From: Synechococcales cyanobacterium C42_A2020_086
GTDB taxonomy: Bacteria; Cyanobacteriota; Cyanobacteriia; Elainellales; Elainellaceae
Reading direction: 5' to 3'
Length of the DNA stretch: 64,000 nt
NCBI GenBank assembly: GCA_015272325.1
Contig: JACYLU010000008.1
Location: forward strand, 124,001 to 188,000
Under the pieces are notes generated by a model. That model had not been told where the DNA came from, made no database searches, and worked only from the letters and a program-made list of their open reading frames with translations. Shown here in pieces: positions 36,984 to 63,452 of this stretch. The translations under genes and the position numbers were made by a program. The stretch's first letter is position 1. Each line of letters opens with the position of its first letter.

Positions 36984-37083
36984 GCTTCCTTTCTCAAGTT
37001 TGACTGAATTCATAATGCAGGGCGTTGATTCATTTCGCTACTGATAGAACTTCTAGAAATATTAGGGTTTCTTTCTGCATTGC

Positions 37084-39086: not shown

Positions 39087-39179
39087 TGTTAAAGCCTGCT
39101 GGATTGAAGCTTTTTAGGTGAGATCAGTAAGTGATCATTCAGTAGCTAAACAATATCTGTGAGGCTGTCCACTAAAATT

Positions 39180-40334
39180 CTATATTAGAAGAGTTAAAAG
39201 GTCCTTCACCTTTTGGCCAGCTACTCGCCAATTCAACCGTGTTTCATATTCATAAAATGCAGAAAGAGCCAAGTCCTTATATTGAGTAAAATCCGAGAAA
39301 AGCTCAATAATATATTTACAGTATTCTGTGGCATCACTCTCCCTAGCAAAAAGCTTACCATTACGACCGTCTTTAATTACAGTTGGAATTCCACCAACCC
39401 TTCTGGATATGCAGGGTACTGCTAATGAATTTGCCTCGCAAAAAACAATGGGAGTACAGTCTGCTAGCGAAGGTAAAATTAAAAAGTGAGAATCAGCAAG
39501 AAGTTGAGATATTTTCTCTTGCCCTTCATCGGACTTTCTAATGAACCCCAAGCTTTTTACAAATTTAGGTAATGGTTCATCTGTGATGGGTTCACCACCA
39601 ATTATAGTTAGTTCTGTTTTTAGTCCTGCACAATTCAATTTCTTAGCTACTTCTAGCGCAAGATCTCCTCCCTTACGAAACCAGTCGACACCAAGAAAAA
39701 GTAGCTTACACGTATGTTTAGGTCGGGAGTCAATCAATTCCTTAATCTCTTCAAATGATCGATCGGTTGTAATGTTTGCTCCAAAAGATACAATTTTTAC
39801 CTTAGACGGTTCAGCTTTATAATACTCAATTGCCGTTCTGGCTGCCCATTCAGATGAATAAATTGCTAGTTTGCACCTCTGCAGGGCTAATCTTTCCATC
39901 AAGTGCCCGTTCTGAATAGTCTCCTCACACAATCCTGTGAATTGAGGGTAGAAATTTAGCAGATTCTGGAAGGTAGCGTCTGCCCAAAACACAATTGGCT
40001 TGTGGTATCTAAGATAGGCAATTGGAGTAATAGTTGCGCTTAATACAACATCTGTTTCTAATTTAGATAACTCTTGAGAAACTTGTTGTGCATAACTTTT
40101 TAAAATCAGAGGATCCAGTGTTTTCAAATAAGTTTTTTTTGAAAAAAAATCATGATAATGACGCTTAACCTTACAAATACCTTGTAGTACGATTCGCTCG
40201 TTCAGTGGACCAACATACTGTACAGATATTGATTGCTTCTTAAGTGATTCAGGAATATAGTAACCTGTTCCTGCCCAATTGCTACTAGTATCTAGACTTC
40301 TTGCATCAAAGGTAGTAACGTAGGCTAGCTTCAT
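39180..40334 (-). CDS. GT4-family glycosyltransferase
   Basis: 384 residues, more AT-rich than most neighbours. Acceptor half: MKLAYVTTFDARSLDTSSNW and the loop GTGYYIPESL. Donor half: KLLFLGVDWFRKGGDLALEV and SHFLILPSLADCTPIVFCEA, which ends with an E-type residue where the GT4 E-x7-E would sit (the first acid is Asp in ADCTPIVFCEA). The fold and order are those of GT4, yet the motif is divergent. The donor is unknown. It stands in its own unit, about 90 bp before the GT2 pair. Confidence 0.85.
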   Translation of the reverse strand: MKLAYVTTFDARSLDTSSNWAGTGYYIPESLKKQSISVQYVGPLNERIVLQGICKVKRHYHDFFSKKTYLKTLDPLILKSYAQQVSQELSKLETDVVLSATITPIAYLRYHKPIVFWADATFQNLLNFYPQFTGLCEETIQNGHLMERLALQRCKLAIYSSEWAARTAIEYYKAEPSKVKIVSFGANITTDRSFEEIKELIDSRPKHTCKLLFLGVDWFRKGGDLALEVAKKLNCAGLKTELTIIGGEPITDEPLPKFVKSLGFIRKSDEGQEKISQLLADSHFLILPSLADCTPIVFCEANSLAVPCISRRVGGIPTVIKDGRNGKLFARESDATEYCKYIIELFSDFTQYKDLALSAFYEYETRLNWRVAGQKVKDLLTLLI

Positions 40335-40529
40335 AATTCAGTCTTCTTTATTCTCTGGCTTAAAACTATAAATCAGTTCTGATACTTGCAGAAATGGTAG
40401 TCCTACTTAGTAAAGGATGGAGAAAATATTGTCGTCTCTCCGCATCATCCGCCACCCTCACCCACTGCTGATGACCTTAGTCATCGACTTTTCTACATCC
40501 TTGACTTAAAAACACTACCGCAGAAACTT

Positions 40530-42317
40530 CTACTGGTTTAAAACAACTTCTTGATAATTCCCTGACTTAAGAATTCGACCTTGTTCCAACTGGTAGATGC
40601 GATCGCAATGTTCAATTGTAGAAAGACGATGGGCAATGATGATAATAGTCTTTCTACCACTTAAAGTTTTTGTTGCTTCTGTTACGAGCTGCTCTGTTTC
40701 ATTATCTAAAGCAGCAGTTGCCTCATCAAAAACTAAAATTTCTCTTTCATGATACAGAACACGTGCAATTCCTACTCGTTGACGTTGGCCGCCTGATAGT
40801 AAAACTCCTCGTTCACCTACGACCGTCTTGATACCATCTGGGAGCTGAGCAACTACCTCGATTAGCTGAGCCATTTCGATCGCTTTCCATAACCGATTTT
40901 GGTCAATCAGTTGATCTGGAACACCAAACGCGATGTTCCGTTCCAGGGTATCATCGATTAGAAATATAGTCTGGGGAACGTAACCAAGCATGTTTTGCCA
41001 GGCACGTAAATTACTGTAGACGGAAACCCCATCAACTTTGATATCACCAGATTGAGGAATGAGAAGACCTAGCAAGACATCAACTAAAGTGGTTTTACCA
41101 GCTCCTGATTTCCCAATCAATCCGATAGCTTGCCCTTTGCGTACTGTCAAAGATATTTTATCTAATGACTTTTTTGAAGTATTTGGATAGTGAAAAGTAA
41201 CATTATCTAAAATGATGTGATCTCTAAACGAAAGAAAAGATGCACTGGAATTTGCTGGCAGGCTCTCAGAATAACTGAAACCAGCAGGTAAAATCTTCCC
41301 TTCTTCTATCTCCTTTAGATCAAAAAACAATTTATCGATGGCAAATGTATTAGATCTAAAAACATTGATATTACTAACCAAGTTGCTTATTGCCGGAAGA
41401 AGGCGGATTGAAGCAAGGGCAAAGATTCCTAGAACAGCAGTAAGATTTTGTCCTGAATCTTGATTGAAGTTGAGGAACAACAATGTGAAGCCAACCAAGA
41501 AAGTGATCATAAATGCTTCAATCACAAAGCGAGGAAGATTACCGTAACCTTGGGCTAACGTTAGATTTTGAGCATACCTCTTTGTTTGCTCCTTCATCTG
41601 ATTCTCAAAATAGGATTCACAACCGATTACACGAGTTTCTTTTAACCCTCCTAATCCATGATTCAAGATGCGAATCATTTTGGCTGAAGCGTCCCATCCC
41701 TCCTTGTTCCATAAAGATAAGCGACTTCGCAGTAGTTTCATCAATCCAATGACAACAGGTAAAAGTAGGATAATCAGAGCCAAAGCTGTAACATTAGCCC
41801 TAACTAGCAGTAAAAATAATGCTAATGTGATGACAGAATTAGATATGGCTGTTAAAAGAGGCATGACTACACCAATACAGACACTATCGGTTGTACCAAT
41901 AACGTCTTGAATTAGTGCAGCTGAATTAATACGTAGGTGAAAGCTGTATGGAGCTTTAAGGTAGGCTTTCAAGAGCTTATAGGATAGCTCCGCCTTTAAG
42001 GTATACCCAAATTTGAATACCGCTTTTTGACCTTCAAAACTTAGAAATGCCTTGATGTAAAATGCAATTAAAACTAATGCGCCTAGAACAATCAGAAATT
42101 GTTGTTCAGAACTAAAATTCATCTGTTGATAAATCAAGTTCAACCAATAGTTGCCCTTAACTAAATCTGGATTAGTGGCAACGGCAATGAATGGACCAAC
42201 CATACCGGTGCCAAAAACTTCTAAGCCAGAAATGAAGAGAAACAAAAAAGCCATCATAACGAGTGATTTATGATAACCCTTTGTTAGGTATAAAAACTTA
42301 GGCAAGAATTGAGTCAT
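40530..42317 (-). CDS. ABC exporter/flippase (PglK/MsbA-like half-transporter)
   Basis: 595 residues from the ATG at 42317. The N-terminal membrane domain has about six helices (LVMMAFLFLFISGLEVFGTG, FLIVLGALVLIAFYIKAFLS and others). The ATPase domain shows Walker A GLIGKSGAGKTTLVDVL, the Q-loop LGYVPQTIFLIDDTL, the signature LLSGGQRQRVGIARVL, Walker B REILVFDEATAALD and the H-loop IIIAHRLSTIEHCD. It is catalytically intact. Half-transporters of this kind flip lipid-linked oligosaccharides (PglK) or lipids (MsbA). Since no Wzx-type flippase is visible in the window, this gene is the best candidate for moving the repeat unit across the membrane. Confidence 0.9.
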   Translation of the reverse strand: MTQFLPKFLYLTKGYHKSLVMMAFLFLFISGLEVFGTGMVGPFIAVATNPDLVKGNYWLNLIYQQMNFSSEQQFLIVLGALVLIAFYIKAFLSFEGQKAVFKFGYTLKAELSYKLLKAYLKAPYSFHLRINSAALIQDVIGTTDSVCIGVVMPLLTAISNSVITLALFLLLVRANVTALALIILLLPVVIGLMKLLRSRLSLWNKEGWDASAKMIRILNHGLGGLKETRVIGCESYFENQMKEQTKRYAQNLTLAQGYGNLPRFVIEAFMITFLVGFTLLFLNFNQDSGQNLTAVLGIFALASIRLLPAISNLVSNINVFRSNTFAIDKLFFDLKEIEEGKILPAGFSYSESLPANSSASFLSFRDHIILDNVTFHYPNTSKKSLDKISLTVRKGQAIGLIGKSGAGKTTLVDVLLGLLIPQSGDIKVDGVSVYSNLRAWQNMLGYVPQTIFLIDDTLERNIAFGVPDQLIDQNRLWKAIEMAQLIEVVAQLPDGIKTVVGERGVLLSGGQRQRVGIARVLYHEREILVFDEATAALDNETEQLVTEATKTLSGRKTIIIIAHRLSTIEHCDRIYQLEQGRILKSGNYQEVVLNQ

Positions 42318-42500
42318 TGGAAATAATTCTGCAGATATTGAGAGTCCGTAAACTAAAATGAGAGTTTTGCGGTGACGAGTATAGTACTCTCTTGGAACTA
42401 CTATGGGCTGCCTATGGGCTGCAAGGCAGAGTTTAACCAAGGGCTAAATCTTCGCGATGTCACGATATAAGCCTGCATTACCAGTACAGTATCGCGGAAA

Positions 42501-43562
42501 TCATATGGTATCAAAACTTCTTCTTAATGTGGATAACTGAGCCTTTAAGTGGTAGTAAGCCGGACGAAATCCAATAAAGGACTGACGTGCTCTGAAGAAA
42601 AGTTGCTGTTCCCAGTGAGTCATTGAGCACCAATTCTTGTAGGATGGAGCTGCAATATTGGTCAAAAAATCTTGCCACTTAGCAACCATAGTGGCTGGCT
42701 GTGTCTCTCTGGCGCGGAACCAACCATTTTCGACTACTGCACGACGTAGTTCCTTGTTATCTCGCAGTTGTTTTAAGGCTGAGATGACCTCTTCCAGAGA
42801 AGTTGCCTCCAGGTAATCTAAATTACTTTTCCGCTCAGCCTGAAATGCAGACTCATGACCAAGAATCGCAGGAACTCCAGCATGCCATGCGCTGTAGAGC
42901 TTTGATGCTGGTTTGCTCCGCCAATCATTCTGGCGACCAAATTCTCGGATAGCCAACACAACATCAGTGTTGCTGTAGTTGTGCCATTCATCATGATTTA
43001 ATTTCTGGTGGAATTTCAAGCCCAAGTCTTCGAGCTGGTCATACCAGGCTTGCTCCCGGAACTCAGGCACTAAATTGACTTCATTCCCCAGAAAAGTTAC
43101 ATTTTCAAAGAGATCGCCGCGTTCAGGACTACGAGGAATAATGGAGGGTTGCGGCCAGTGAGGGATAAAGTGACTTTCCCAAAGCGTCATAAAACGTTTT
43201 GGTATTACTTGGCGAGGATTCTGAACTACGTGAAGTTGGGCATAAGGATGTCTATCTACATCTGCTCGAAGACAAACTAAGAGCATCTTTGAACTGGGTC
43301 GCAGAGAGTTATCGAGAAAATCACGATGAGATACAACAATACCTTCATCAGGAATTGCTTCCACTAGGATGCAAGGAAAACCATAATCTCTAAGGTAAAG
43401 ATAAGTCTGCGCTGTCCAAAAGCAACCACCACTTTGCATTGGAGAAACTGAATGCTGGTCACACTGCCATTGCCAATAGGAGCTGACGCTTGCTGGCAGA
43501 TTGCTAACGTTTAGTGTAGAGCGAGGGAAATAGAAGTAAATTGGAGGTAAATCTTTAAACAT
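42501..43562 (-). CDS. Putative glycosyltransferase of the polysaccharide island
   Basis: 353 residues. No N-terminal signal. The C-terminal half has GT-B style features: KPASKLYSAWHAGVPAILGH, followed by a conserved acid region (ESAFQAERKSNLDYLEATSL) and the closing helix EVISALKQLRDNKELRRAVV. The N-terminal half (CILVEAIPDEGIVVSHRDFL) resembles proteins annotated as glycosyltransferases in cyanobacterial capsule clusters. I do not recognise a defined GT family and the call rests on these features plus context. It lies 183 bp upstream of the ABC gene and is the first minus-strand gene of the main island. Confidence 0.6.
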   Translation of the reverse strand: MFKDLPPIYFYFPRSTLNVSNLPASVSSYWQWQCDQHSVSPMQSGGCFWTAQTYLYLRDYGFPCILVEAIPDEGIVVSHRDFLDNSLRPSSKMLLVCLRADVDRHPYAQLHVVQNPRQVIPKRFMTLWESHFIPHWPQPSIIPRSPERGDLFENVTFLGNEVNLVPEFREQAWYDQLEDLGLKFHQKLNHDEWHNYSNTDVVLAIREFGRQNDWRSKPASKLYSAWHAGVPAILGHESAFQAERKSNLDYLEATSLEEVISALKQLRDNKELRRAVVENGWFRARETQPATMVAKWQDFLTNIAAPSYKNWCSMTHWEQQLFFRARQSFIGFRPAYYHLKAQLSTLRRSFDTI

Positions 43563-44348
43563 AACTTTGAACTAATTCACTATGAAACTATCACATCCAC
43601 ATTATTCAGAGGGTTGAAGCCCCTAGCCTGCAACGGATCTAGTAGTAGCTTGCGCCTCATAGCCTTGTCTGCAATTGAGTTCATTCACTAGGGGGGTACT
43701 AGCCACGATAGAGGAGAGCGAGGAGCAACAGTATATTGCCAGTTCAAGCACAGAGGTAGCGAAATGGGCTGCAATTCATTAATTCAGAGCTTGAATCTAG
43801 CGATTGCATCCCTAGTATCGAAGCAAACAGTGAAGCCGCTCAACCTACCTCCTAAGATGGGTATAAAGGTAAAATTTTTGTAAAGCTACTCAAACGAAGA
43901 CAGCCTTGTAATCCCGTTTGCAGTAAGTTGTGAGAAGACCGGAATACAGCATTAATGCTTCGCTATTATCCCTTAGCCTCTCAACTCTAGAGAGGAGCAG
44001 GTCAGACATTCTTTAGAACTGAGAGCTAGTTCCGAACCGACAGGTATCTTTCTGAGTTGACATTTCCAGCTCACACTAGCTGAAAGCTATCAGATTGGTG
44101 ACCAATACGGTGATATGACATGTTGCTTCCACTGATTTTTCACACTTCCTTCACCTAGATGAAGTTTATGTAGAAACGCGGGGAGGTACTGTCGCGGTCA
44201 TGTGCTGGAATGGTATATATAATTGACTAACTTCCTTTTAAATCTCTGTCAAAGTCAAGGTGCTGAGGCTTACGTGGACGAGCATTTACCTACGCCAGGG
44301 ATGAACCTACCGTGATGATGGGGGTTGTCAACTTACGTCCAATGCGGT
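43563..44348. other. Intergenic region between divergent island segments
   Basis: 786 bp without a supported gene. It is AT-rich and carries scattered short frames on both strands with stops every 20-30 codons. Being next to two clear gene relics (44349-44659), it is probably eroded coding DNA plus the promoter of the minus-strand genes. No strong hairpin with a T-run is seen. Confidence 0.45.
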
Positions 44349-44480
44349 TTACTCTAGCGCTTCCATAATATGCCGAAGAATCGGACAGCCACCTATCTTC
44401 ACCAATAGCTTCGGCTTAGTTTCCGCTTCCTCCGCAATGCGAGTGCTCAGTTCTTCAGTAAGAAGCAAGAATTGTAACTC
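44349..44480 (-). pseudogene. Relic of glucose-1-phosphate cytidylyltransferase (RfbF), N-terminal fragment
   Basis: Read on the minus strand, 43 codons spell the N-terminus of RfbF-type enzymes. QFLLLTEELSTRIAEE lines up with the VILAGGLGTRLSEE nucleotide loop, then TKPKLLVKIGGCPILRHIM lines up with KPKPMVEIGGKPILWHIM. The reading frame stops (TAA) four codons after HIM, where intact enzymes continue for another 210 residues. The glycines of the catalytic loop are already lost and no start codon remains. RfbF makes CDP-glucose, the entry to CDP-3,6-dideoxyhexoses. The fragment shows that such a pathway once stood here or was carried in on a larger block. Confidence 0.75.
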
Positions 44481-44497
44481 TTATTGGTAAGGAAACT

Positions 44498-44659
44498 ATG
44501 TTTCCGGAGTTTTTAAAGGAATATAAGCCGGACGGAGTAATTGTGGTGAATCCAACCCACTGCAGTGAGATCCAGCAGATGCTTAGCGAAATGGAAGTAG
44601 ATACGGAGTTAATCTCTCTTCAAAGGAGAATTGAGTTTTTGAATTCAGAAGTACTTTGA
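44498..44659 (+). pseudogene. Relic of a sugar C-methyltransferase, C-terminal fragment
   Basis: An open stretch of 53 codons from ATG 44498, and about 11 codons more upstream without a start. It reads MFPEFLKEYKPDGVIVVNP, then THCSEIQQMLSEMEVDTELI. That is the C-terminal lobe of class I NDP-sugar C-methyltransferases (usual form YKPDxVIVMNPIYxxEIxxML). The SAM-binding part is missing entirely. It points away from the RfbF relic, while in intact clusters these genes run in the same direction, so the locus was rearranged as well as deleted. Confidence 0.7.
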
Positions 44660-44703
44660 GTTAGGAATAGAGCCAAACTCTACTTAAAAAAGATTAAGAA
44701 ATT

Positions 44704-45654
44704 ATGAGTAGGATTGAACCTCGCATTAGTATCGGTGTACCTGTGTACAACGGTGAAAATTTTATCCGTGTCGCTCTCGATTCTATTTTAGATCAGACTT
44801 TTAAGGATTTTGAGGTTATTATCGCAGATAATGCTTCAACGGACCGAACAGAAGAAATATGCCGAGAATATGCGGCGAAGGATAGCCGCATCAGGTATTA
44901 CCGAAATCCTACTAACATTGGTGCTGGTCCCAATCACAATCTGATCGTTCAATTAGCTAAAGGTGAGTATTTTGCCTGGGTTGGTCATGATGACGCACGA
45001 GCACCAGAGTATTTTGAGAAATGCGTTGAGGTACTGGACAGAGAGCAATCTGTGGTTCTCTGTCATTCTTTGACTAGAATCATCGATGAGAATGGAGCTA
45101 CAGTTGAAGATTTTAAGGAAGAGCATCTTAGGCCAAGCACTAATTCTTCTGAACCCGAGAAGCGTTTTGCAAATTTGATTCACGATGGTGAATGTTACAA
45201 AATATATGGGTTAATCCGATTGAGTGCTCTGCGAAAGACACGGTTGATTGAAAATTATGCCCACGGGGATGGTGTACTTTTAGTAAGACTGGGATTATTA
45301 GGACGCTATCACGAAATCCCCGAGTATCTGTCGCTAAATCGGCATCATTCTGGTATGTCAACGCAAATAGCAAGCCGCAATTATTATGCTTATACTGCCT
45401 GGTTTGACACTAAGAAGGTCGGGCGAATTGTTTTACCACAATGGCAGATTCTTTGGGGTTATTTTCAGGCTTTGCAAGATACTCCGCTGAGCTTAAAATC
45501 GCGTATTTTGTGCTACATACATTTGCTAAATTATATTAGATGGAGATCTAGATATCTGCTTCGAGATGTTCTAATGGCTGCTCAGGCTTACTGTAAAAAA
45601 CTGTGGTTTTTCTTGACTGGTAGTAAGAAAGAACTAATTGAGTATGGTGGTTAA
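44704..45654 (+). CDS. GT2-family glycosyltransferase
   Basis: 316 residues, the only plus-strand glycosyltransferase in the island. GT-A signatures: RISIGVPVYNGENFIRVALD, FEVIIADNASTDRTEEICRE and YFAWVGHDDARAPEYF, where GHDD forms the metal-binding DxD-like site. RPSTNSSEPEKRF and HGDGVLLVRLGLLG belong to the acceptor side. A basic hydrophobic tail (MAAQAYCKKLWFFLTGSKK) suggests membrane contact. It starts 45 bp after the methyltransferase relic and ends at a large hairpin shared with the convergent beta-helix gene. Confidence 0.9.
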   Translation: MSRIEPRISIGVPVYNGENFIRVALDSILDQTFKDFEVIIADNASTDRTEEICREYAAKDSRIRYYRNPTNIGAGPNHNLIVQLAKGEYFAWVGHDDARAPEYFEKCVEVLDREQSVVLCHSLTRIIDENGATVEDFKEEHLRPSTNSSEPEKRFANLIHDGECYKIYGLIRLSALRKTRLIENYAHGDGVLLVRLGLLGRYHEIPEYLSLNRHHSGMSTQIASRNYYAYTAWFDTKKVGRIVLPQWQILWGYFQALQDTPLSLKSRILCYIHLLNYIRWRSRYLLRDVLMAAQAYCKKLWFFLTGSKKELIEYGG

Positions 45655-45697
45655 TGATCTTGAAGTGCTTGAAATGAATGATTCTCTTTTAACTCGG

Positions 45698-45753
45698 GAG
45701 CATGTCACCTTTAGGACGAGTAGAAATGCTTAAATGGAAAAAGTGACATGCTC
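45698..45753. terminator. Large perfect inverted repeat between convergent genes
   Basis: GAGCATGTCAC at 45698-45708 is the exact reverse complement of GTGACATGCTC at 45743-45753, with a 34-base loop. The right arm reaches into the stop codon of the beta-helix gene. It probably ends both transcripts, though the loop is long and the T-runs are weak. Confidence 0.6.
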
Positions 45754-47743: not shown

Positions 47744-50700
47744 TTAACCATCTTCAGGGGAGATAGGGGAAGCGGTGTTGAAGAAGTAATCCACCTTTGA
47801 GGTAAAAGCAGGCGGTGAACCCGAGGTGGCATGATTGGCTGCAAAAGTGCCTACAGCAGTTGCATTCAGAGTGTGGGTGAAACTTCCTGCAGTGGTCCAG
47901 TTGCTGCCATTGCTAGAATATTGCAGTGTCCACTGATTTCCCTGTCGATTCACTCGCAGGTATGGGGCAGACCCAGGAGCAATCGCTGTGTTGAGTCGAA
48001 CGGTTGACGCACCGTTGACTGTGGTGGCAGCAAAGATATAAAGACTCGCACCATCATGGTAGGTATCAAAGCGTATCCAGTTGTTGACATCTTGCTCAAC
48101 TAGGATCCCCTGCATCTGGAATCGTTGAGTCGGTTGGGAGGCAAACTTTGCTTCTAAACCGAAATCGGTGTTGCTAGTTGCCTGCATGACCCGCACCGAG
48201 CGGTTGCTGTTATTCCACAGGTCATGCGAACTGCCCGCCGGAGCGACCAACTCCAGATACGCATCTCCACTCCCTGCACCCACCAAGCGATAGGAACCAT
48301 CGTTGAGGGGATTGACAAAACTCCAACGCGAGTTCAGGCTGTTGCTGTTGAAGTCATCTGAACTGAAAGCAGAACCCGGTGTGGGGGTGGGAGTAGGAGT
48401 GCTACTACTGATGCTCAACCTCACAGTAGCAGCATTGGAGGTTGCCCCATCATCATCTTGCACAGTATAGGTGAAGCTATCACTGGTCGTAGCAGAGCCG
48501 TTGTGCGTGTAGGTCACAACACCATTGTTGATGCTCACCGTACCATGGGTCGGCGGAGTCCCGATAGCAACAGAACTTGGTACAAGAGTACCGTCGCTGT
48601 CACTGTCGTTGCTGAGCACATTGATACTGACTGTACCCCCTTGTGTCATGCTGGCATTATCATCGCTCGCACTCGGAGGTTGATTAGGAGGTGGATTGCC
48701 TCCTGCATTTCCATCTTCAGGGGAGATAGGGGAAGCGGTGTTGAAGAAGTAATCCACCTTTGAGGTAAAAGCAGGCGGTGAACCCGAGGTGGCATGATTG
48801 GCTGCAAAAGTGCCTACAGCAGTTGCATTCAGAGTGTGGGTGAAACTTCCTGCAGTGGTCCAGTTGCTGCCATTGCTAGAATATTGCAGTGTCCACTGAT
48901 TTCCCTGTCGATTCACTCGCAGGTATGGGGCAGACCCAGGAGCAATCGCTGTGTTGAGTCGAACGGTTGACGCACCGTTGACTGTGGTGGCAGCAAAGAT
49001 ATAAAGACTCGCACCATCATGGTAGGTATCAAAGCGTATCCAGTTGTTGACATCTTGCTCAACTAGGATCCCCTGCATCTGGAATCGTTGAGTCGGTTGG
49101 GAGGCAAACTTTGCTTCTAAACCGAAATCGGTGTTGCTAGTTGCCTGCATGACCCGCACCGAGCGGTTGCTGTTATTCCACAGGTCATGCGAACTGCCCG
49201 CCGGAGCGACCAACTCCAGATACGCATCTCCACTCCCTGCACCCACCAAGCGATAGGAACCATCGTTGAGGGGATTGACAAAACTCCAACGCGAGTTCAG
49301 GCTGTTGCTGTTGAAGTCATCTGAACTGAAAGCAGAACCCGGTGTGGGGGTGGGAGTAGGAGTGCTACTACTGATGCTCAACCTCACAGTAGCAGCATTG
49401 GAGGTTGCCCCATCATCATCTTGCACAGTATAGGTGAAGCTATCACTGGTCGTAGCAGAGCCGTTGTGCGTGTAGGTCACAACACCATTGTTGATGCTCA
49501 CCGTACCATGGGTCGGCGGAGTCCCGATAGCAACAGAACTTGGTACAAGAGTACCGTCGCTGTCACTGTCGTTGCTGAGCACATTGATACTGACTGTACC
49601 CCCTTGTGTCATGCTGGCATTATCATCGCTCGCACTCGGAGGTTGATTCGTACTTCCTGGCTCCAAGGAAATAATATTTACATTTCCGAAAGTAACATCA
49701 TCAAAATGAGCTAGCAGTAACAGAGAACCTTGCTGCAAATGCCAGGGATGCAACTGAGCTTGTAAATCCCAAGCAATAGGCTCAGCTAACCCTTGTTGCC
49801 ATACTTTTAGCTTGTACTGGCTATGCCCAGAAGAGGTCTCCACACGCATCTTGTAGTTGTAAGTAACTCCTTCGAGCAAGGAACGAGGCGAAGAGGCTAA
49901 AATCGACGGATTCTCTGCCCAGATTTCTAGAGCATTATTGTGCGTATACCAACCAATCGTTCCAAAAGGAAAGAAGCCTGCTTTAGGTTGGAAACCCGCA
50001 ACTGGATTATCGGTGTGTCCTGTCCATCGCATCAAGATTCCAGCACCTACTCCATCTCGTCCGTTATTTACACCAAACTTGTGAACAGTGACAGGAACGG
50101 TGACCTCATAGTCTCTCCAGGAAATATCACCGATTGCAATTGCGCGATCGTAGCCTGTCCTTGTGCTACGAATTCCATTGGAGGTAAGTGTCCAAAACCC
50201 ATCAACGACCTGTACAACATCCTGAATGTTATTGACCTGCTCCCAATTAATGGAGTAATTTGGGCTCCAGGTACTTCCTGACTCATAATCAATAGTAACG
50301 GTGGTAATGGAAGTGTTGCCAAAAGTATCTTTAGCTGTGATAACCACTGTGTCATCAACAGGAGTAGGATTTAAGGCAGAATAGGCAATGTCAATATTGA
50401 AATCGCCTGGTGCAGTGAGACGACGAGTCTGGAGTGCATTGATACCGATTGTTAGCGGAACTTGAGGCCCACCATTTAACGAATAGCTTAAAGATTGCAC
50501 TCCATCGGGATCAAAGACATTACCAAGAACATTAATCCAGGTCTGCGGTTTTCCAAGGTGCCCAAAACGTTGATTAGTCCCATACCAAACATCGATAGTT
50601 GGACCTTGTGCATCCAATAATCCTTGGTAGTTAGACATCAGAGAGGAGGTGAATGGCGCAAGAGTTTCAATACTGCCCGTACTGTATTCTAGTGTCCAAT

Positions 50701-51232
50701 CACCACCCTTAAAAGAATTGCCCGTAGCATTAATAGATGCGGCAACATCGGCACCTGTCAAATCGCTTAGTTTTCTAATAAAGGTTTGTCCAATTTCTCC
50801 ATCAGCAACATTGCAACCGTAAAAAAGAATATCTGCCCCGTCTACGAGAGATGCTCTCCATTGCCGAATTTGATTCTCATACTGTATAAGAGATTGTGTA
50901 TTTAAAGCGCCATTCCCCAGTCTGACTTCAGCTGTACTTCCATGAGAAATAATACTGACACCTTTGATATTCCTATAAGAATTCAATACTTCAGTAATCT
51001 GAGTGACACCATCTTTTGTTTGATCAAACAGGATTTTGACATCTGCTTGGGTACCTACTACGAAAGCTAGGGCATTATCAATAGATAAATCAATAAATGT
51101 AATAGTTTGGGGAGTTAATGACTGGTTGAAACACCTTCTTGAAGGGTCAGGAATTTTCCCAACCTGACACGATTCCAAATTATAAGCTAATTCAAACGCC
51201 TTATCGACAAGCAACTGGTTATCTGTCCACAT
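47744..51232 (-). CDS. DUF4347 surface protein with duplicated cadherin-like/LamG-like modules
   Basis: 1162 residues. The N-terminal DUF4347 domain is at about 40-210 (ISHGSTAEVRLGNGALNT, DILFYGCNVADGEIGQTFIR), a caspase-like fold found on large secreted cyanobacterial adhesins that usually leave by type I secretion. There is no signal peptide. A cadherin-like strand set and a LamG/concanavalin-like domain follow (about 220-520). Then come two copies of one module (about residues 528-840 and 849-1161). Each has a cadherin-type VCBS-like domain (SASDDNASMTQGGTVSINVL, NGVVTYTHNGS), a Thr-Pro linker and a DUF1349-like lectin fold (GILVEQDVNNWIRFDTYHDG). The copies look identical at DNA level. 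No C-terminal Ca2+-binding RTX repeats are seen, which is unusual; the protein may be shortened. Confidence 0.85.
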   Translation of the reverse strand: MWTDNQLLVDKAFELAYNLESCQVGKIPDPSRRCFNQSLTPQTITFIDLSIDNALAFVVGTQADVKILFDQTKDGVTQITEVLNSYRNIKGVSIISHGSTAEVRLGNGALNTQSLIQYENQIRQWRASLVDGADILFYGCNVADGEIGQTFIRKLSDLTGADVAASINATGNSFKGGDWTLEYSTGSIETLAPFTSSLMSNYQGLLDAQGPTIDVWYGTNQRFGHLGKPQTWINVLGNVFDPDGVQSLSYSLNGGPQVPLTIGINALQTRRLTAPGDFNIDIAYSALNPTPVDDTVVITAKDTFGNTSITTVTIDYESGSTWSPNYSINWEQVNNIQDVVQVVDGFWTLTSNGIRSTRTGYDRAIAIGDISWRDYEVTVPVTVHKFGVNNGRDGVGAGILMRWTGHTDNPVAGFQPKAGFFPFGTIGWYTHNNALEIWAENPSILASSPRSLLEGVTYNYKMRVETSSGHSQYKLKVWQQGLAEPIAWDLQAQLHPWHLQQGSLLLLAHFDDVTFGNVNIISLEPGSTNQPPSASDDNASMTQGGTVSINVLSNDSDSDGTLVPSSVAIGTPPTHGTVSINNGVVTYTHNGSATTSDSFTYTVQDDDGATSNAATVRLSISSSTPTPTPTPGSAFSSDDFNSNSLNSRWSFVNPLNDGSYRLVGAGSGDAYLELVAPAGSSHDLWNNSNRSVRVMQATSNTDFGLEAKFASQPTQRFQMQGILVEQDVNNWIRFDTYHDGASLYIFAATTVNGASTVRLNTAIAPGSAPYLRVNRQGNQWTLQYSSNGSNWTTAGSFTHTLNATAVGTFAANHATSGSPPAFTSKVDYFFNTASPISPEDGNAGGNPPPNQPPSASDDNASMTQGGTVSINVLSNDSDSDGTLVPSSVAIGTPPTHGTVSINNGVVTYTHNGSATTSDSFTYTVQDDDGATSNAATVRLSISSSTPTPTPTPGSAFSSDDFNSNSLNSRWSFVNPLNDGSYRLVGAGSGDAYLELVAPAGSSHDLWNNSNRSVRVMQATSNTDFGLEAKFASQPTQRFQMQGILVEQDVNNWIRFDTYHDGASLYIFAATTVNGASTVRLNTAIAPGSAPYLRVNRQGNQWTLQYSSNGSNWTTAGSFTHTLNATAVGTFAANHATSGSPPAFTSKVDYFFNTASPISPEDG
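47748..48685 (-). repeat. 938-bp direct repeat, copy A (C-terminal module)
   Basis: Apparently identical, by eye, to 48711-49648. The period is 963 bp (321 codons), so the duplication stays in frame, and a 25-bp spacer between the copies encodes a Gly/Pro/Asn linker. The unit encodes one cadherin-like plus one lectin-like domain and ends at the protein's C-terminus. Confidence 0.92.
48711..49648 (-). repeat. 938-bp direct repeat, copy B (penultimate module)
   Basis: Partner of 47748-48685. Sequence identity includes synonymous sites, so the duplication is recent or is kept alike by recombination. Identity begins at CCATCTTCAGGGG and ends at GGTTGATT on the plus strand. Confidence 0.92.
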
Positions 51233-51755: not shown

Positions 51756-53669
51756 CTAAACCCTAGCAAGCTGATTGTGCATTTCAGTGGCGTACTGATC
51801 GGCTCCCAACCCTACAATCAGGTGCAGTTTGCCGCCCGGTAGCCGCAAAATACCCTGCACACCAGCGTCTCGGAGGGCATTGTCATCGACGAGAGTGCTG
51901 TCGGCTACTTCCACGCGCAAACGGGTCAGCGCCACGTCTTCCACGCGACGAATATTGCCCATGCCTCCCAAGGCGGCAATCATAGAGCGAGCTTTCATCG
52001 GAGCATCGGGATCGAGTTCGATCTTGCTGATGATGGCGCTTTCCGCCGTAGCGGCTGCCTCTTCTGGCGTTGGGACGTAAGCTTCGTCCGCTTCGGGACC
52101 GGCCGTTTTCAGATATTCAATCATGTCAGTCTTCAGGTTTTCGGAACGAGGACCAAAAATCGCCTGAGCACTGTTGCCCACCTCTAGCACCCCTGACGCA
52201 CCTAACGCCTTCAGACGCGCTTTGTTGACCTTCTTCATGTCGTTTACTGTAATTCGCAGCCGGGTAATGCAGGCGTCGAGTGTAGCAATATTGCTACGAC
52301 CGCCAAAGGCCCGCACTAGCTCACGAGCCATACCAGCAGCATCACCAGAAAGCGGCGACCCCATTTCATCATCTACTTCATCTTCCCGTCCCGGCGTCTT
52401 CAGATTGAGCTGCTTAATGCCAAAGTAGAAAATGACAAAATACAATGCGAAGAATAATGGACCAAATGCAGGGACTAACCAGGACTTAGTACCTAAGCTA
52501 TTGAACAGCAGAAAATCGATGCCGCCTTGAGAGAACGTAAAGCCCATTTTGCCGCCCATCGTTTGGAATAGCCATTGGCAAAAGCCTGCAATCAGGGCGT
52601 GAATGGCATAAAGCTGCGGCGCGACAAACATGAACGAAAACTCGATTGGCTCTGTAATTCCAGTTAAGAACGATGTGAAGGCTGCTGAAAACATCAAACC
52701 GCTGACCCGACCGCGATTTTTGGGATAGGCGACTCGCCACATCGCAATTGCCGCACCGGGCAGCCCAAACATCTTGAACCAGTAAGCGCCACCCAGAATG
52801 CCGGCAGTGGGGTCACCGGCAAAGAAGCGGCGAATGTCTCCGGTTACGACTTGATTCGTTGACGGATCCACAAAGCGCCCGATCTCAAAGAAGAACGGCA
52901 CGTTCCAAATATGGTGCAACCCGAATGGCAGCAGCAAGCGTTCGACAACCCCATAGATGGCAGCAGTAATAGCAACATTGGCTCCACTCGCCGTTGCATT
53001 TGCGGCCGTATTAATGGCATTGCCAATGGGCGGCCAGAGCACACTCATCAGCATCCCTAGCAGGATGGCGCTCAGCCCAGTGATGATTGGCACAAAGCGC
53101 TTACCCGCGAAGAAACCCAGATACTGAGGCAACTGAATGCGGAAATATTTGTTGAACAGGTAAGCCGCCAAACAGCCCACCAACAGTCCGCCGAACACCC
53201 CTGTATCCAGGGTATTAATCCCCATGACCGGCTTCAGTAGGTTCAACGGATCGGGTAGCCCGTTGGCCGCCAATTCCTCGGGGCTAAAGCGAGCGGCCGC
53301 ACTTGGGTCCAGCCCTCTAGCAATAATGTCCTGGGGTGCCAGATAGCCAAAGAAAGCTTGAGCCGCCGCACCCAGTGCTGCTAGAAATACGGCAAATCCC
53401 ACAATAGCGGCTAAAGCAGATGCACCGTCGTTGCCGGTAAAGGCAATGGCCACAGCAATCGCGAAAATCACCGGCAGGTTCGCAAAAATTGCATCTCCCG
53501 AGCTTCTCATAATGGTGGCTAGCCATTCGGGGAGCCAGCCAAAGGCTTCGGGCTTACTGAACTTGGCGGAACCAATGCCCAGCAGCAATCCCGCAACCGG
53601 CAGCACCGAGACCGGCAGCATCAGCGCCTTTCCCAACTGCTGCAGCAAGGCAAATAGTTTTTTGAACAT
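51756..53669 (-). CDS. ptsG: PTS glucose-type permease EIICB with a second, inactive IIB domain
   Basis: 637 residues from the ATG at 53669, whose N-terminus [20 protein letters not shown] is nearly that of enteric PtsG. The IIC domain (about 1-400) shows [34 protein letters not shown] and [18 protein letters not shown]. The IIB domain carries the phosphorylated cysteine in [13 protein letters not shown] (about Cys467). A second IIB-like domain follows, with [15 protein letters not shown], in which that cysteine is alanine (about Ala580), so it cannot accept phosphate. Enteric PtsG ends near 477 residues, so the extra domain is an extension. It imports glucose with phosphorylation to glucose-6-phosphate. 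It is cotranscribed with the EIIA-HPr-EI gene upstream, 106 bp away. Confidence 0.93.
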
Positions 53670-53775
53670 AGCTGCGTTGATGGAAGAATGAAGTAATGAA
53701 TCTAGAAGCGGAATCAGCTCAGGAGCGCTAGAAATCGTTGGACGACGCAAAGCGACTCACCCACCGGACCCCACA

Positions 53776-56337
53776 CTAATCTTCGAGCGGGTACAGCTCG
53801 CGCACCTCAGCACCGGACTGCAGTGACAGTGCCTGATCCGCTAAACGGCGGCAGTCGGCCAGGTTGAGGGTGCGAATTTGGGCTTTGATGCTAGGAATCG
53901 TTGGAATACTGACGCTCAGCTCCTTGACGCCCAAGCCAATCAAGATTGGTACGGCTTGCGGGTCACTGCCAATGCCGCCGCAAATACCGCAAAATTTGCC
54001 GTGGGCGTTGGCGGCCTTCGCGGCCATGCCAATGAGCGCCAGCACCGATGGGTTGAGTCCATCCACATAGGGGGCTAGCTTCGGGTGGCCGCGGTCCATC
54101 GCTAGAGTGTATTGGGTTAAGTCGTTCGTACCCACTGAAAAGAAATCCGCCTCCTGGGCAAACTGATCCGCCAAAACTGCTGCTGAGGGCACCTCCACCA
54201 TGATGCCAGCCGAGATCGGCGGAACGCCTAGCGCCTGCCGTTCTTCTTCCAGCATGGCTTTGGCCATATACCAGTCTTCCAGGGTGGCAATCATCGGAAA
54301 CATGATTTTGACGTTGCCCTGGGTGGAGGCACGCAAAATAGCACGGAGTTGGGTGCGCAGAATATCAGGGCGATCAAAACCAATGCGAATGCCACGCACA
54401 CCCAAGAAGGGGTTTTCTTCCGGCGGAATCGGCAGATAGGACAGGGGTTTATCGCCGCCCACATCCAGCGTGCGGATAATCAGCGGGCGGTTGCCTAAAA
54501 TGCGAGCAATGGAAGCGTAAATCTCGGTTTGCTCGTCTTCGCTAGGGGCACTATCGCGCTCCATAAACACAAACTCTGACCGCAGCAGACCGACGCCTTC
54601 GCCGCCTAGAGCCACGGCCTTCTCGGCTTCTTTAGCATTACCGATATTGGCTACCACCTCGATGCGATGTCCATCTTGGGTCTGGGCCGGCAGATCGGCG
54701 GTTGCCAGATCCGCCTCGCGTTTGGCTTTCAGTCGAGCTTGCTTGCGTCGAACTTGCTCCATTTCCTCGGCAGACGGGTTGAGCCGCAGCTTGCCTTTGC
54801 TACCGTCGAGAATAACGGGTGTTCCGTCCAGCAATTCCATGATCCGCGGCTCTGCTCCAGCAATTGCAGGAATATCCATTGAACGTGCCAGGATGGAGAC
54901 GTGGGAAGTGGCCCCACCGCCGATGGTACAGAAGCCCAATACCTTACCTCTTTCTAGAGTTGCCGTATCAGAAGGGGTCAGGTCTTCGGCTAGCAGAATG
55001 CTTTGATCCGGATAGGATATGGTTTCAGTCGAGGTGCCGGTCAGAATCCGCAGCACCCGTTCGCCCACGTCGCGCAGATCATTAGCGCGGGCAGCCAGCA
55101 ACTCGTTCTTTAGCTGGGATAATACCTCGGCCTGCGCGGTATAGGCTTGCTGCCAAGCAAAGGCGGCACTCTTGCCCTTGTCGATCAAGCTGGTTGCGGT
55201 GTCTTCCAATTCTGGGTCTTCGAGTAGCTCTAAGTGAGCCGCAAAAATAGCAGCCTTGCCGGCATCTGCTTGTCCATGCACCTTCGCCCGTAGGGCTTCA
55301 ATTTCCGATTTGGCTTGATCGATGGCCCGCTCTAGCTTGCGCCGTTCCGCATTAGGGGTGGTGCCCGTTTCGCTCACCTGAATCTCTTGGCGACGAATGC
55401 GGTGGGTATAGCCGACGGCAATGCCCGGAGAAGCTGGAACACCCAAGATGACATTTGGATCGCTGGAGCGCGGTCGCGGGGGTGGCGGTGCTGCTTCTAG
55501 CGTGGCAATGCTAGCCGGAACGCCAATTGGCTTGGCTCCCTCTTCCCCCAGACCCGTCCGCAACGCTTCGCTGAGTTCAGCAATGGCAGCGTCGGCATCC
55601 GTTCCCGTGGCGATCAAATGCACCGTATCGCCATGACCGATTTCCAACCCCATCAACCCAACCACGCTGCGCACACTCACCTGCCGGTCGCCCCGTTTGA
55701 GCCGAATGTCCGATTGATATTTCTTAGCGAGATTCACCAGTACAGCAGCAGGGCGAGCATGCAGCCCAGTGGGATTAGGGACAATAATCGGGTCAGAGGT
55801 GAGGGTCTTGCCAGTCTGTGCGGCTTTCCCGTCGGTTTGTACTCCTGCCAGCGCCAAATCTAGAATCACATCTTGCCCTGCCGTGACGTTCCCGGAATAG
55901 GGTGTGAATGTGGTGACCTCATCGCTATTGCTAATAACAATTTGCGTCAGGAGACTTTTGGCATTGAGGGCAACAAAGTCAGCGTCAAAGTCGATCAGCA
56001 CATCCCCTGCTTTAACCCTATCGCCCACCTTCACATGGGGGTCAAATCCCTTCCCTCGCAGGGCCACTGTATCTAGGCCGATGTGCATCAAAACTTCCAA
56101 GCCTTCAGCCGTCTTCACGGTAACGGCATGGCAGGAAGGATGCAGCTGCACAACTTCTCCATCACAGGGAGACAAGAGAGATTGGCTGACCGGATCAATA
56201 GAGATGCCATCTCCCACCATCTTCTCGGCAAACACTGGATCCGGAACTTTTTCAATAGGGACTAACCTCCCAGATAAAGGGGCGATTAAGGAAACATCGG
56301 CTGCTGTAGATTGAGCCGACGTAGCAGTATAAGTCAT
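53776..56337 (-). CDS. PTS EIIA(Glc)-HPr-EI fusion phosphoryl carrier
   Basis: 853 residues carrying three PTS parts. EIIA(Glc)-like (about 1-165) has the phosphate-accepting His85 in EVLMHIGLDTV and the second His70. HPr (about 181-270) has His193 in NPTGLHARPAAVL and a serine (Ser224) at the HPr Ser46 place. Enzyme I (about 297-850) has His479 in IGGGATSHVSILARS and the PEP-site blocks SVGTNDLTQYTLAMDRGH and KFCGICGGIGSDPQAVPIL. All phosphorylation residues are present, so one protein could carry phosphate from PEP to the EIICB encoded just downstream. Fusions in this order occur in NagF/FPr-type proteins of proteobacteria. Transfer from such a donor is plausible but not proven. Confidence 0.94.
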   Translation of the reverse strand: MTYTATSAQSTAADVSLIAPLSGRLVPIEKVPDPVFAEKMVGDGISIDPVSQSLLSPCDGEVVQLHPSCHAVTVKTAEGLEVLMHIGLDTVALRGKGFDPHVKVGDRVKAGDVLIDFDADFVALNAKSLLTQIVISNSDEVTTFTPYSGNVTAGQDVILDLALAGVQTDGKAAQTGKTLTSDPIIVPNPTGLHARPAAVLVNLAKKYQSDIRLKRGDRQVSVRSVVGLMGLEIGHGDTVHLIATGTDADAAIAELSEALRTGLGEEGAKPIGVPASIATLEAAPPPPRPRSSDPNVILGVPASPGIAVGYTHRIRRQEIQVSETGTTPNAERRKLERAIDQAKSEIEALRAKVHGQADAGKAAIFAAHLELLEDPELEDTATSLIDKGKSAAFAWQQAYTAQAEVLSQLKNELLAARANDLRDVGERVLRILTGTSTETISYPDQSILLAEDLTPSDTATLERGKVLGFCTIGGGATSHVSILARSMDIPAIAGAEPRIMELLDGTPVILDGSKGKLRLNPSAEEMEQVRRKQARLKAKREADLATADLPAQTQDGHRIEVVANIGNAKEAEKAVALGGEGVGLLRSEFVFMERDSAPSEDEQTEIYASIARILGNRPLIIRTLDVGGDKPLSYLPIPPEENPFLGVRGIRIGFDRPDILRTQLRAILRASTQGNVKIMFPMIATLEDWYMAKAMLEEERQALGVPPISAGIMVEVPSAAVLADQFAQEADFFSVGTNDLTQYTLAMDRGHPKLAPYVDGLNPSVLALIGMAAKAANAHGKFCGICGGIGSDPQAVPILIGLGVKELSVSIPTIPSIKAQIRTLNLADCRRLADQALSLQSGAEVRELYPLED

Positions 56338-60870: not shown

Positions 60871-62150
60871 GGTTGGCTGACAAAACTAGGAGGCTGGAAA
60901 ACGAGAGAGGACAATAAATTCACGCTTCAAGGCATGCTTCAATTGACGCTGAGAGGCAAGAGCCGGTTCTGGGTCAGGCGCACCAGAGAGCAACCAGTAC
61001 AGTTGAATAGTCCACTGCTCAGTCACGGCAAGCCGAATCCAGTTCCAGCCTAACTTCAAGTAGCTCATACCACGATACCAGTGCGGGTCAACCCGTCGCC
61101 TTTGGTTTGTCGCGACGACCTGAACCCCTTGCAGTACCAGCATCGTCAGTGCAATGACTCCGCAAAGCTGCGATAACGAGAACCTGTCACGAATCCGAGA
61201 GGCTTCCAGTTGAAAGCCATTCGACTTGAGATCCAAAAACGATTCCTCCACTTGAAAGCGGAGACGATATTGAGCAAAGGTTTGTAAGCTTGTCGGCTCA
61301 TCACTGACAATCGTCGAGGGTTCACCGCTTTGCTGGTCATGAGCAAACGCCAGATAAACCTTGGGGTAGGGCTTGGTTTTACCGACCCAGACCGCAGGGG
61401 TGCAATAAACTTGTCCCGGTTGCAACTGGACTGACGATACTTTGCGCCACTGCCCCTGGTGCTGAAAGTGAAAGGAGCGTTTGATGCCAATGCGGAAATG
61501 CCAGTTCAGATTCTCTTTGAGGTATTGCATCAGTTTGCCATCGGCAAAGCCCCGGTCAGCCAGCAGGACAACGGCTACTCCATTGGGCATGAGTCGTTGT
61601 ACTTGTCGCAGTCGCCTCTCAATTGTCCACAACTTCACCGTACTACTAGAGTGCGCCACGCCTTACCAGGCAATGGGGACTGTTCTGCCTCGATACACCA
61701 CTCCTAGCCAGACGATGCAAAAGCAATTCCACACCACTGTCGGGTCCAGGCTGAGATACAGTCGTTCCTGCTTCCATCCCGACACAGCCTGCCCAACCAG
61801 AGCATGATGGGCAGAAATGACATCAATGCGGCGATTCGACAACCATCGGCAAAACCGTCGCTGGTGCGATTGGGCAATTTTTGCTCGGCTGACCACGTAT
61901 ACCCCAAATCCATTGAGATGAACGTTTTGGCTCTGAATCATCCCCACCCTCATCCAGCACAGGGGTTGCAGATGACGCGCATCTCGCCATTGAATTTCGC
62001 ATTGACTCAGAAATTCAGACAGCGCATCATAAAGACGGGAAGTAGGAGACATATGATTTGACTGGTGTGTGTGGTTACTTCTCAGCCTAAATCACGCTCC
62101 GCTTCCCTCCTAGCTTTTGCTTCAGCCTCATCTCGTTTTGTCAGTCAATC
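60871..62150 (-). mobile_element. IS4-type insertion sequence, about 1.28 kb
   Basis: Outer ends GGTTGGCTGACAAAAC (60871-60886) and, as reverse complement, GATTGACTGACAAAAC (62135-62150) match at 14 of 16 bases. Inside them both ends also share a GAGGCTG block. The element holds one transposase frame with a single in-frame stop. I see no clear target-site duplication at these ends; the true ends may differ by a few bases. Confidence 0.75.
60886..62052 (-). pseudogene. IS4-family DDE transposase interrupted by one in-frame stop codon
   Basis: 388 codons read in a single frame apart from TAA at 61663-61665. Before the stop: a helical N-terminus, then SLDPTVVWNCFCIVWLGVVY with the first catalytic Asp, ending RTVPIAW. 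After it: VAHSSSTVKLWTIERRLRQV, then VVLLADRGFADGKLM with the second Asp, and YRLRFQVEESFLDLKS with the Y-x2-R-x3-E-x6-K signature and the Glu. All three acids are kept. Intact relatives have a lysine-like codon after the Trp, so a single change may have caused the stop. The element is probably non-autonomous unless the stop is read through. The 3' end overlaps the left inverted repeat. Confidence 0.85.
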
Positions 62151-62246: not shown

Positions 62247-63452
62247 CTACACTGCTTTCCCAGGCATTCGCTTTAAAGCCTCTGTCTCATAGCATTTGAG
62301 AATTAACTCATTGAGAACATCCAAGTCATTAATTGATGAAATGATCACTCTTGCTGTTGCATCTCCAAACGAAGCTGACATCTCCTGAACTTCAAAACCC
62401 AATGATAATCTCTTGACCTCATCAATGGGCAACCGAGTCACGAAACTCTTCTTCTTAGGGGATAGATACAACCTTAGGAACCACCATGTTACTTTGCCAA
62501 CATTCAATCCAAAATATGAGACGACATCCTTATACTTGACTTCTAATTTACAATTTGTTGACTGCGCTACGATAGCCTTGATCTTCTCAAATGCTTCGAG
62601 TTCTTCCGCAGTCGTCTCTACTTTAGTATCTTCCAAGCTTTGGTCTAACTCATCTTGAATTTCCTCAATCTCCTCCATTAGTTGTGCTGGAGAAGAAATT
62701 TCATTGGACTGACCCATTTCTTTGCTAATGGATTGGGTCATTAACTCAACTAGGCTTCCTTGGATAGATTTTTTCACAATTGGCCGAAATTTTTCAACAA
62801 TCTTGCTGGTAATCTTGCTCTCTATTGCGTATCTCGAACCAATGTTACCAAGCTGAGAAATTAAAAAGCGAATAAATTCATCAGAAGGAGAACGCAGCAG
62901 GCCATCCATGAGTTGAGTCATTCCAGTCAAGTAGACCATCTCTTCAGCATGTCGCTTTATCACAAGAGCGTCAAAGTTATCTCTATGGAAAAACTTTAAG
63001 TTTTCAACTTGCTTTTGGTCGTAGCTAAGAATGTTGAAAACAAAGAAAGGATCATCATCCATCATGTTTTCATGGCGTAAATCTGTGAAGAAAAGATACT
63101 CAATGCCATTTGTTACAATAGCGACCTTTGCCGAGCGCAACCCATTGAAATACCTTTTTAACTGACCGTCATGTGCTTCTGGCTTTTTGTCACGGGCTTT
63201 TGCTTCGACAAGCATAACAATCTCATTGCTGATGGATATGGCATAGTCTACTTTCTCCATCTGCCCTGATTTTTTAACCGCAAAATCTGCGATGTATTCA
63301 GGAATAACTTCTGTTGGATCAAAGACATCGTAGCCAAGGGTACTAAAAAATGGCACAATCAATCCCATTTTCGTTGCCTCTTCACCTGAGACTGCTTCAG
63401 CCCTTTTTCGGACTTGTTCTGCAACCTTGGCGATGTCATCTGTAAATGCCAT
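62247..63452 (-). CDS. Solitary HsdR-N-type (COG4748) nuclease-like protein
   Basis: 401 residues from the ATG at 63452 with GGAG eight bases upstream. The N-terminal 170 residues match the type I restriction R-subunit N-terminal domain (COG4748): EEATKMGLIVPFFSTLGYDV, then a PD-(D/E)xK core with Asp in MEKVDYAIS and Glu-x-Lys in IVMLVEAKARDKK, and the closing GQLKRYFNGLRSAKVAIVTNG. No helicase, methylase or specificity gene is nearby. The central part is helical with an acidic coiled coil (MEEIEEIQDELDQSLED), and the last 90 residues form a separate unknown domain. Such stand-alone proteins are often annotated as type I restriction, but a defence role is not shown. It sits between an IS element and an integrase fragment. 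Confidence 0.85.
   Translation of the reverse strand: MAFTDDIAKVAEQVRKRAEAVSGEEATKMGLIVPFFSTLGYDVFDPTEVIPEYIADFAVKKSGQMEKVDYAISISNEIVMLVEAKARDKKPEAHDGQLKRYFNGLRSAKVAIVTNGIEYLFFTDLRHENMMDDDPFFVFNILSYDQKQVENLKFFHRDNFDALVIKRHAEEMVYLTGMTQLMDGLLRSPSDEFIRFLISQLGNIGSRYAIESKITSKIVEKFRPIVKKSIQGSLVELMTQSISKEMGQSNEISSPAQLMEEIEEIQDELDQSLEDTKVETTAEELEAFEKIKAIVAQSTNCKLEVKYKDVVSYFGLNVGKVTWWFLRLYLSPKKKSFVTRLPIDEVKRLSLGFEVQEMSASFGDATARVIISSINDLDVLNELILKCYETEALKRMPGKAV

Follow-up and report, generated by a model that had tools for sequence, protein, structure and literature searches.

In Escherichia coli, enzyme I (EI), HPr and EIIA of the phosphoenolpyruvate (PEP)-dependent phosphotransferase system (PTS) are separate proteins. 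A two-protein version is described, in the available part of PMC3222305, for the N-acetylglucosamine (GlcNAc) carrier NagF/NagE of Ralstonia eutropha, where an EI-HPr-EIIA fusion works with an EIIBC permease. The PTS was called absent from cyanobacteria in the accessible portion of a 2008 survey, and excerpts of two papers describe cyanobacterial sugar uptake through GlcP, GlcH and frtABC (PMC10515406, PMC9958718), and the latter names GlcH and GlcP among the sugar transporters of cyanobacteria. The word “phosphotransferase” does not occur in the excerpt of PMC10515406, which lists a 1978 reference titled for alpha-methylglucoside transport in Plectonema. None of the titles and abstract beginnings listed in searches of open-licence papers reports a sugar PTS from a cyanobacterium; such a report may be in print elsewhere. 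Here we describe two adjacent genes predicted to form a glucose-class PTS in Synechococcales cyanobacterium C42_A2020_086 (the source genome). They lie in a stretch of 64,000 nucleotides of contig JACYLU010000008.1 (positions 124,001 to 188,000), which is called the window below.

Both genes are open, full length and encoded on the minus strand (Table 1). The upstream gene codes for a single chain in which EIIA_1, HPr and three EI domains each exceed the curated Pfam cut-offs, and thus has the makeup of a multiphosphoryl transfer protein (MTP) with a glucose-type EIIA. Alignment to the sequences of solved IIAGlc and EI proteins places His70, His85 and His479 on known active sites, and His193 lies within NPTGLHARP, the HPr phospho-histidine motif. 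Every phosphate-carrying histidine and the PEP-site residues of EI are present. The downstream gene has the content of a glucose-class permease, with one EIIC and two EIIB stretches above the curated Pfam cut-offs, and its Cys494 falls on the known IIB active site when aligned to the glucose EIICB sequence of a solved structure. Of 84 homolog rows, 80 have a letter at this position, and it is Cys in every one of them; the active-site residues are kept in the five cyanobacterial pairs aligned. The initial annotation of this DNA had claimed a complete PTS with all phosphate-carrying histidines and a IIB cysteine in two adjacent genes, and the Pfam matches and alignments to solved proteins bear this out. 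The cysteine it noticed belongs to the first IIB domain; a second IIB domain lacking a cysteine had been missed.

The open reading frame (ORF) list gives the permease as 51756-53750 with a TTG start at 53750, in which the ATG at 53669 is residue 28. The true start is most likely this ATG, because Met1 of E. coli PtsG aligns exactly there. Given this start, 106 bases separate the two genes. A promoter scan gave nothing of use: it returned one site, on the other strand, where shuffled sequence has a mean of 4.6.

Table 1. Coordinates of the two PTS genes and their domains in the window
Feature	Coordinates	Strand	Basis
MTP, EIIA(Glc)-HPr-EI fusion, 853 amino acids (aa)	53776..56337	-	TIGR01417 567.3 bits (cut-off 341.7)
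EIIA(Glc) domain; His70, active-site His85	55858..56304	-	PF00358 153.1 bits; alignment to IIAGlc 1f3g
HPr domain; phospho-His193	55558..55791	-	PF00381 89.4 bits; motif position
EI domain; phospho-His479, Arg622, Arg651, Asn738/Asp739, Arg749, Cys786	53794..55449	-	PF05524, PF00391, PF02896; alignment to EI 2kx9/2hwg
PtsG-type EIICB permease, 637 aa from ATG	51756..53669	-	Pfam, NCBIfam; start from E. coli PtsG Met1 alignment
EIIC membrane domain	52380..53654	-	PF02378 255.2 bits
First IIB domain; phospho-Cys494 (codon 52269-52271)	52107..52331	-	PF00367
Second, Cys-less IIB domain; Ala607 at Cys site, TRLR kept, His643	51768..52004	-	PF00367 35.2 bits (cut-off 27, domain alone)

We consider it likely that this pair is a complete and self-sufficient glucose-class PEP-dependent PTS that cyanobacteria gained once and then mostly inherited. 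In such a system, EI His479 would take phosphate from PEP and pass it to HPr His193 and then to EIIA His85, all within one polypeptide. The phosphate on His85 would move to Cys494 of the PtsG IIB domain, and PtsG would carry the sugar through IIC and phosphorylate it, most likely yielding glucose 6-phosphate.

Glucose (or a related sugar) is the likeliest substrate, judging from protein models and pocket motifs. The permease scores above the cut-off of the NCBIfam glucose EIIBC model TIGR02002 (649.1 versus 591.8) and below that of the GlcNAc model TIGR01998 (460.6 versus 553.2). E. coli controls for these two models behave as expected, with values of 781.1 and 454.2 for PtsG and 461.6 and 712.5 for NagE. 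Identity is 50% to E. coli PtsG over 522 positions versus 37% to NagE. Among 27 positions that differ between these two E. coli proteins, the window permease has 16 PtsG-like versus 4 NagE-like residues and so does not have NagE-like pocket motifs. At the same positions none of 85 rows is as near or nearer to NagE, although these rows are not independent because they were chosen by their likeness to the window's pair.

Several observations weigh against glucose. The permease falls just short of the narrow E. coli PtsG model PRK11089 (NF008301; 627.9 versus 647) and therefore does not class as a PtsG equivalog of the E. coli type. In addition, nagB and nagA adjoin the PTS pair at three other cyanobacterial loci: between the two genes (genome G414), directly after the permease (G419, locus L036) and one ORF after it (L032). 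Their coordinates are 10563-12686 in L177, 11525-13862 in L181 and 10934-12516 in L032. In two Anaerolineae (L052 and L059), nagA directly follows the permease. One possibility is that the permease imports GlcNAc and/or glucosamine as a supply for NagA and NagB. The purpose might then be to recycle peptidoglycan or to use chitin, and not glucose-based mixotrophy. The source genome itself holds a nagB-nagA pair on another contig (C33), and nagB exceeds the cut-off in 12 of the 14 genomes of its family with the PTS versus 4 of the 9 without (Fisher p 0.066). The GlcNAc-carrying NagF/NagE also has the same two-protein layout, as far as the partial source goes (PMC3222305).

We regard this possibility as unlikely but worth serious attention. 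All 16 MTP-partnered permeases scanned, the nag-adjoining ones included, score over the glucose cut-off and under the GlcNAc cut-off, and the pocket motifs are nearer to PtsG than to NagE in 85 of 85 rows. However, the model score cannot decide the substrate, because a glucose-type score is also obtained for the nag-adjoining permeases of G414, G419, L032 and L052. Of 39 distinct cyanobacterial loci, some of which end early at contig ends, only 3 show adjacency of nagB-nagA, and nag genes are absent among the neighbours of the pair at the window's own locus. Moreover, 24 PTS-bearing genomes were searched for nagB: it exceeds the cut-off in 12, every one of which belongs to the source family, and is under the cut-off in all 10 searched outside it. 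Thus, the proposal of glucose uptake in the initial annotation remains the likeliest, with GlcNAc or glucosamine left as candidates by the three nag-adjoining loci.

The second IIB domain of the permease matches PF00367 on its own. Its AlphaFold model (62 rows) has a predicted local distance difference test (pLDDT) score of 93.0, and the best match in the PDB is EIIB 3bp3 (E 1.6e-7, template modelling score 0.73 by query). At the site equivalent to the phospho-Cys, 77 of the 78 homologs with letters there have Ala and one has Gly. Rows of the 84-row PtsG alignment without letters at the IIB sites are incomplete at contig ends, and rows L023 and L037 are one genome. In contrast to the lost Cys, the TR.R residues and His643 are invariant in 74 of 74 rows, where the position equivalent to His643 in the first IIB domain is an invariant Gln. 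The more distant Azospirillum and Caballeronia proteins keep the Ala but have Asp at the His643 position. Among the 25 plasmid matches listed of 518, 12 extend to residue 654 or beyond, and the other 13, all from Enterobacterales, end at 549-550. Because homologs of other phyla and plasmid records carry this domain, it is common to several phyla and is not a cyanobacterial invention.

Having lost its Cys, the second IIB domain cannot be a classic phosphocarrier. It retains the fold and the TR.R arginines and would instead dock EIIA or have a regulatory role. We can speculate further that fusion-partnered PtsG proteins contain a built-in pseudo-IIB that regulates by docking or by sensing phosphate and so links transport to the phosphorylation state of the fusion, and that some cyanobacteria use the unit as a sugar PTS, but we hold this combined proposal only tentatively. 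The conserved Cys-less domain poses a separate question that spans phyla, and it is the most novel element of the system.

The pair extends well beyond the source genome, contrary to the impression that it might be peculiar to it. Among the best 80 of 458 relatives from a GTDB scan, 31 records are cyanobacterial, including Planktothrix, Leptolyngbya, Phormidium, Adonisia and Elainella, and the carriers include the culture-collection strains Planktothrix PCC 11201, Planktothrix PCC 9631 and Leptolyngbya PCC 7375. A PtsG match lies in the locus of the fusion for 27 of these 31 and for 48 of the 49 others. The glucose-type fusion is present in 19 of the 36 genomes of the source family, in one piece in 14 and in pieces (cut at a contig end or interrupted) in G386, G394, G399, G403 and G415. 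Fusion and ptsG are direct neighbours in 22 of the 23 cyanobacterial genomes compared, the exception being G414 with its intervening nag genes.

Across the phylum, EIIA_1 exceeds the cut-off in 6 of 386 genomes, five with the fusion and one (G376) with a stand-alone EIIA only; six further genomes matched below the cut-off and were not counted. Stand-alone EIIA(Glc) proteins of 188 and 163 aa, perhaps regulatory, were seen in two cyanobacteria (L022 8356-8919 and L024 7899-8387), with no fusion or PtsG match around them within the fetched stretches. EI exceeds the cut-off in 30 of the 386 genomes. Most of these matches are DhaM types by their N-terminus (23 by motif and L106 by eye), and such fusions (L105-L126, L128 and L130) occur in about 24 genomes, nearly all of one family (f6). 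Therefore, more cyanobacteria have EI than have a sugar PTS. Two EI fusions are of the fructose type (EIIA_2), one in the source genome (L003) and one in G008 (L127), which holds a second EI match that was left out of the typing.

The fructose-type fusion of the source genome belongs to a fructose PTS operon on contig C34 (35107-40429; L018 5108-10430), which encodes an EIIA-HPr-EI fusion with EIIA_2 by Pfam, an EIIBC protein (PF02378) and a kinase that resembles 1-phosphofructokinase. This operon is a second sugar PTS of the genome, a point on which the initial annotation needs correction. A search of the source genome for HPr kinase gave no match, but it may miss members, because controls were matched in only 3 of 14 genomes, not including Bacillus subtilis, which has the enzyme.

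Other sugar transporters bear on whether the glucose pair serves uptake at all. Two strong and four weak matches to the major facilitator superfamily (MFS) family Sugar_tr are present in the source genome, and the strong ones, together with the described GlcP, GlcH and frtABC routes (excerpts of PMC10515406 and PMC9958718), would fit a pair that has a regulatory use or is being lost rather than one used for bulk sugar uptake. The interrupted fusion of G403 and the second IIB domain without Cys would also fit. We nevertheless consider this very unlikely, given that all catalytic residues are intact, that Cys494 is kept in every homolog with letters there and that the two genes are direct neighbours in 22 of the 23 cyanobacterial genomes compared.

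It is exceedingly improbable that the segment is an assembly contaminant, an origin that had been raised with the first description of the locus. The source genome (5.93 Mb in 38 contigs) is 99.99% complete with a listed contamination of 2.16%. However, two genomes of the same family that consist of a single contig, G011 and G414, hold the same pair, and the nearest relatives of the pair are from Elainella, as for RpoB, which shares 97% identity with its Elainella saxicola counterpart. A flanking DUF697 gene is matched in 36 of 36 family genomes, although paralogs exist and not all matches need be the same gene. The GC content at third codon positions (0.585 and 0.586 for the two genes) lies inside the range of 0.33-0.66 for ten window genes measured. 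Together, these observations exclude a contaminant in practice.

Phylogenetic trees place the pair among cyanobacterial relatives. A quick tree was made from 85 fusions, of which 36 are cyanobacterial (LEGE 07170 and 35 labelled as such; L023 and L037 are identical). These 36 rows form one clade with a support of 100 in the Shimodaira–Hasegawa-like approximate likelihood ratio test (SH-aLRT), and the window falls inside the Elainella group. The cyanobacterial rows also form one clade with an SH-aLRT of 100 both in a quick EI-only tree rooted on DhaM (18 rows) and in a quick PtsG tree (17 rows). The sister of the PtsG clade is a Chitinilyticum-Azospirillum-Caballeronia group (99), which suggests a proteobacterial-type donor of the pair; the fusion trees resolve no sister, and the tree of 85 fusions is too weak beyond the cyanobacteria to name a donor. 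The two-protein kind does also occur in Proteobacteria, in line with the proteobacterial look noted in the initial annotation, whereas a proteobacterial donor is favoured by the PtsG tree but not by the fusion and EI trees.

Agreement with a species marker is partial. For 23 cyanobacterial genomes, the fusion tree has 12 of 20 splits in common with the RpoB tree (shuffled mean 0.14, maximum 2, n=1000) and the PtsG tree has 9 of 20 (shuffled mean 0.16, maximum 3, n=1000). Path-distance correlations with RpoB are 0.58 for the fusion and 0.45 for PtsG, and none of 2000 permutations is as high. This comparison is less than a full reconciliation, since it uses RpoB, one slowly evolving marker, and only genomes that carry the PTS.

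We read these data as one old entry of the pair into cyanobacteria, followed mostly by descent with many losses and some exchange inside the phylum. A number of results count against so simple a history. For the fusion and for PtsG alike, the exact RpoB topology is rejected by the approximately unbiased (AU) test; therefore, either some inheritance was not vertical or the RpoB tree is partly wrong. The fusion and PtsG trees have only 9 of 20 splits in common. Neighbours are common only to near relatives, with the exception of large families and of nagB-nagA. Among the 25 families listed in the synteny comparison, a list without the nagB-nagA pair, the most widely shared ORFs are antisense frames of the two PTS genes themselves, and the rest are large families or confined to near relatives. 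Finally, the rarity of the fusion across the phylum requires many losses or transfers among cyanobacteria. The E. saxicola ptsG (G396) groups with G414 and G402 in one PtsG tree, which would suggest local replacement, but adjoins the window's group in a wider tree that includes G402 (as L029) and lacks G414.

Three other histories were set aside. Strict vertical descent disagrees with the AU result for both proteins. Recent transfer into the source genome is rejected because of the single cyanobacterial clade and the family-wide occurrence. An origin from cyanobacterial DhaM or fructose fusions is unsupported because the EI tree joins glucose fusions from cyanobacteria and from other phyla in one group (99), outside which the two cyanobacterial fructose fusions fall. 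The initial annotation had set transfer against the prospect that many cyanobacteria hold the operon by descent. For the source genome the latter is largely what we find, because carriers are many, occurrence is family-wide and the clade is single, and only an old entry into some cyanobacterial ancestor is still likely. On this account of one old entry, the two-gene unit would have come from a PTS-bearing bacterium (of proteobacterial type by PtsG), and would then have been mostly inherited, with losses, some exchange within the phylum and moves between chromosomal places.

Elsewhere in the window, positions 47744-51232 encode a DUF4347/cadherin-like protein with a duplicated module and an exact 300-nucleotide direct DNA repeat at a spacing of 963 nucleotides. 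A DDE transposase region spans 60886-62052 and consists of an ORF with a Pfam match (60886-61659) and an ORF in another frame without one (61663-62052), which may be its broken start. Positions 62247-63452 encode a 401-aa protein with an HSDR_N domain (N-terminal part of type I restriction R subunits). A low-GC stretch (38-48%) at 36000-45700 carries glycosyltransferases and an MsbA-like ABC exporter and is perhaps a surface polysaccharide cluster.

The pair is thus a system of a known type, here in a phylum from which it had been reported absent. A complete PTS in named culture-collection strains makes PEP-driven sugar uptake in phototrophs testable. Such uptake, which may allow mixotrophy, would take PEP from a metabolism based on the Calvin cycle and supply the cell with sugar phosphate at once.

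Compared with E. coli PtsG (EIICB-Glc), the window permease has the same IIC-IIB layout, phospho-Cys and pocket motifs, but the E. coli protein (477 aa) stops after the first IIB domain. The NagF/NagE pair is likened to the window pair by description alone, and differs in that it carries GlcNAc whereas the window permease fails the GlcNAc model. The FruB-FruK-FruA fructose PTS of the source genome also includes an EIIA-HPr-EI fusion, which is 52% identical in its HPr-EI part, but has an EIIA_2 domain of the fructose class and another permease. DhaM-type cyanobacterial fusions have the same EIIA-HPr-EI order and a similar length, but they carry an EIIA-man domain (confirmed in 3 of 3 scanned) and form a separate EI clade. 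According to the available part of PMC2405797, DhaM-type fusions are expected to serve dihydroxyacetone kinase rather than sugar uptake, and EI of FruB-type MTPs groups away from DhaM types; our EI tree holds only three MTP types and is DhaM-rooted, such that this grouping is partly by construction. The closest counterparts are in Azospirillum, Caballeronia, Competibacteraceae, Chromatiaceae, Roseobacteraceae and Anaerolineae, where the same fusion stands beside a PtsG with a Cys-less second IIB domain. The EIIA_1-HPr-EI content of the partner fusions is confirmed by Pfam for Azospirillum, where the fusion and permease genes are divergent, and for Caballeronia. Relative to these MTP-EIICB pairs of other phyla, the cyanobacterial copies form a clade of their own.

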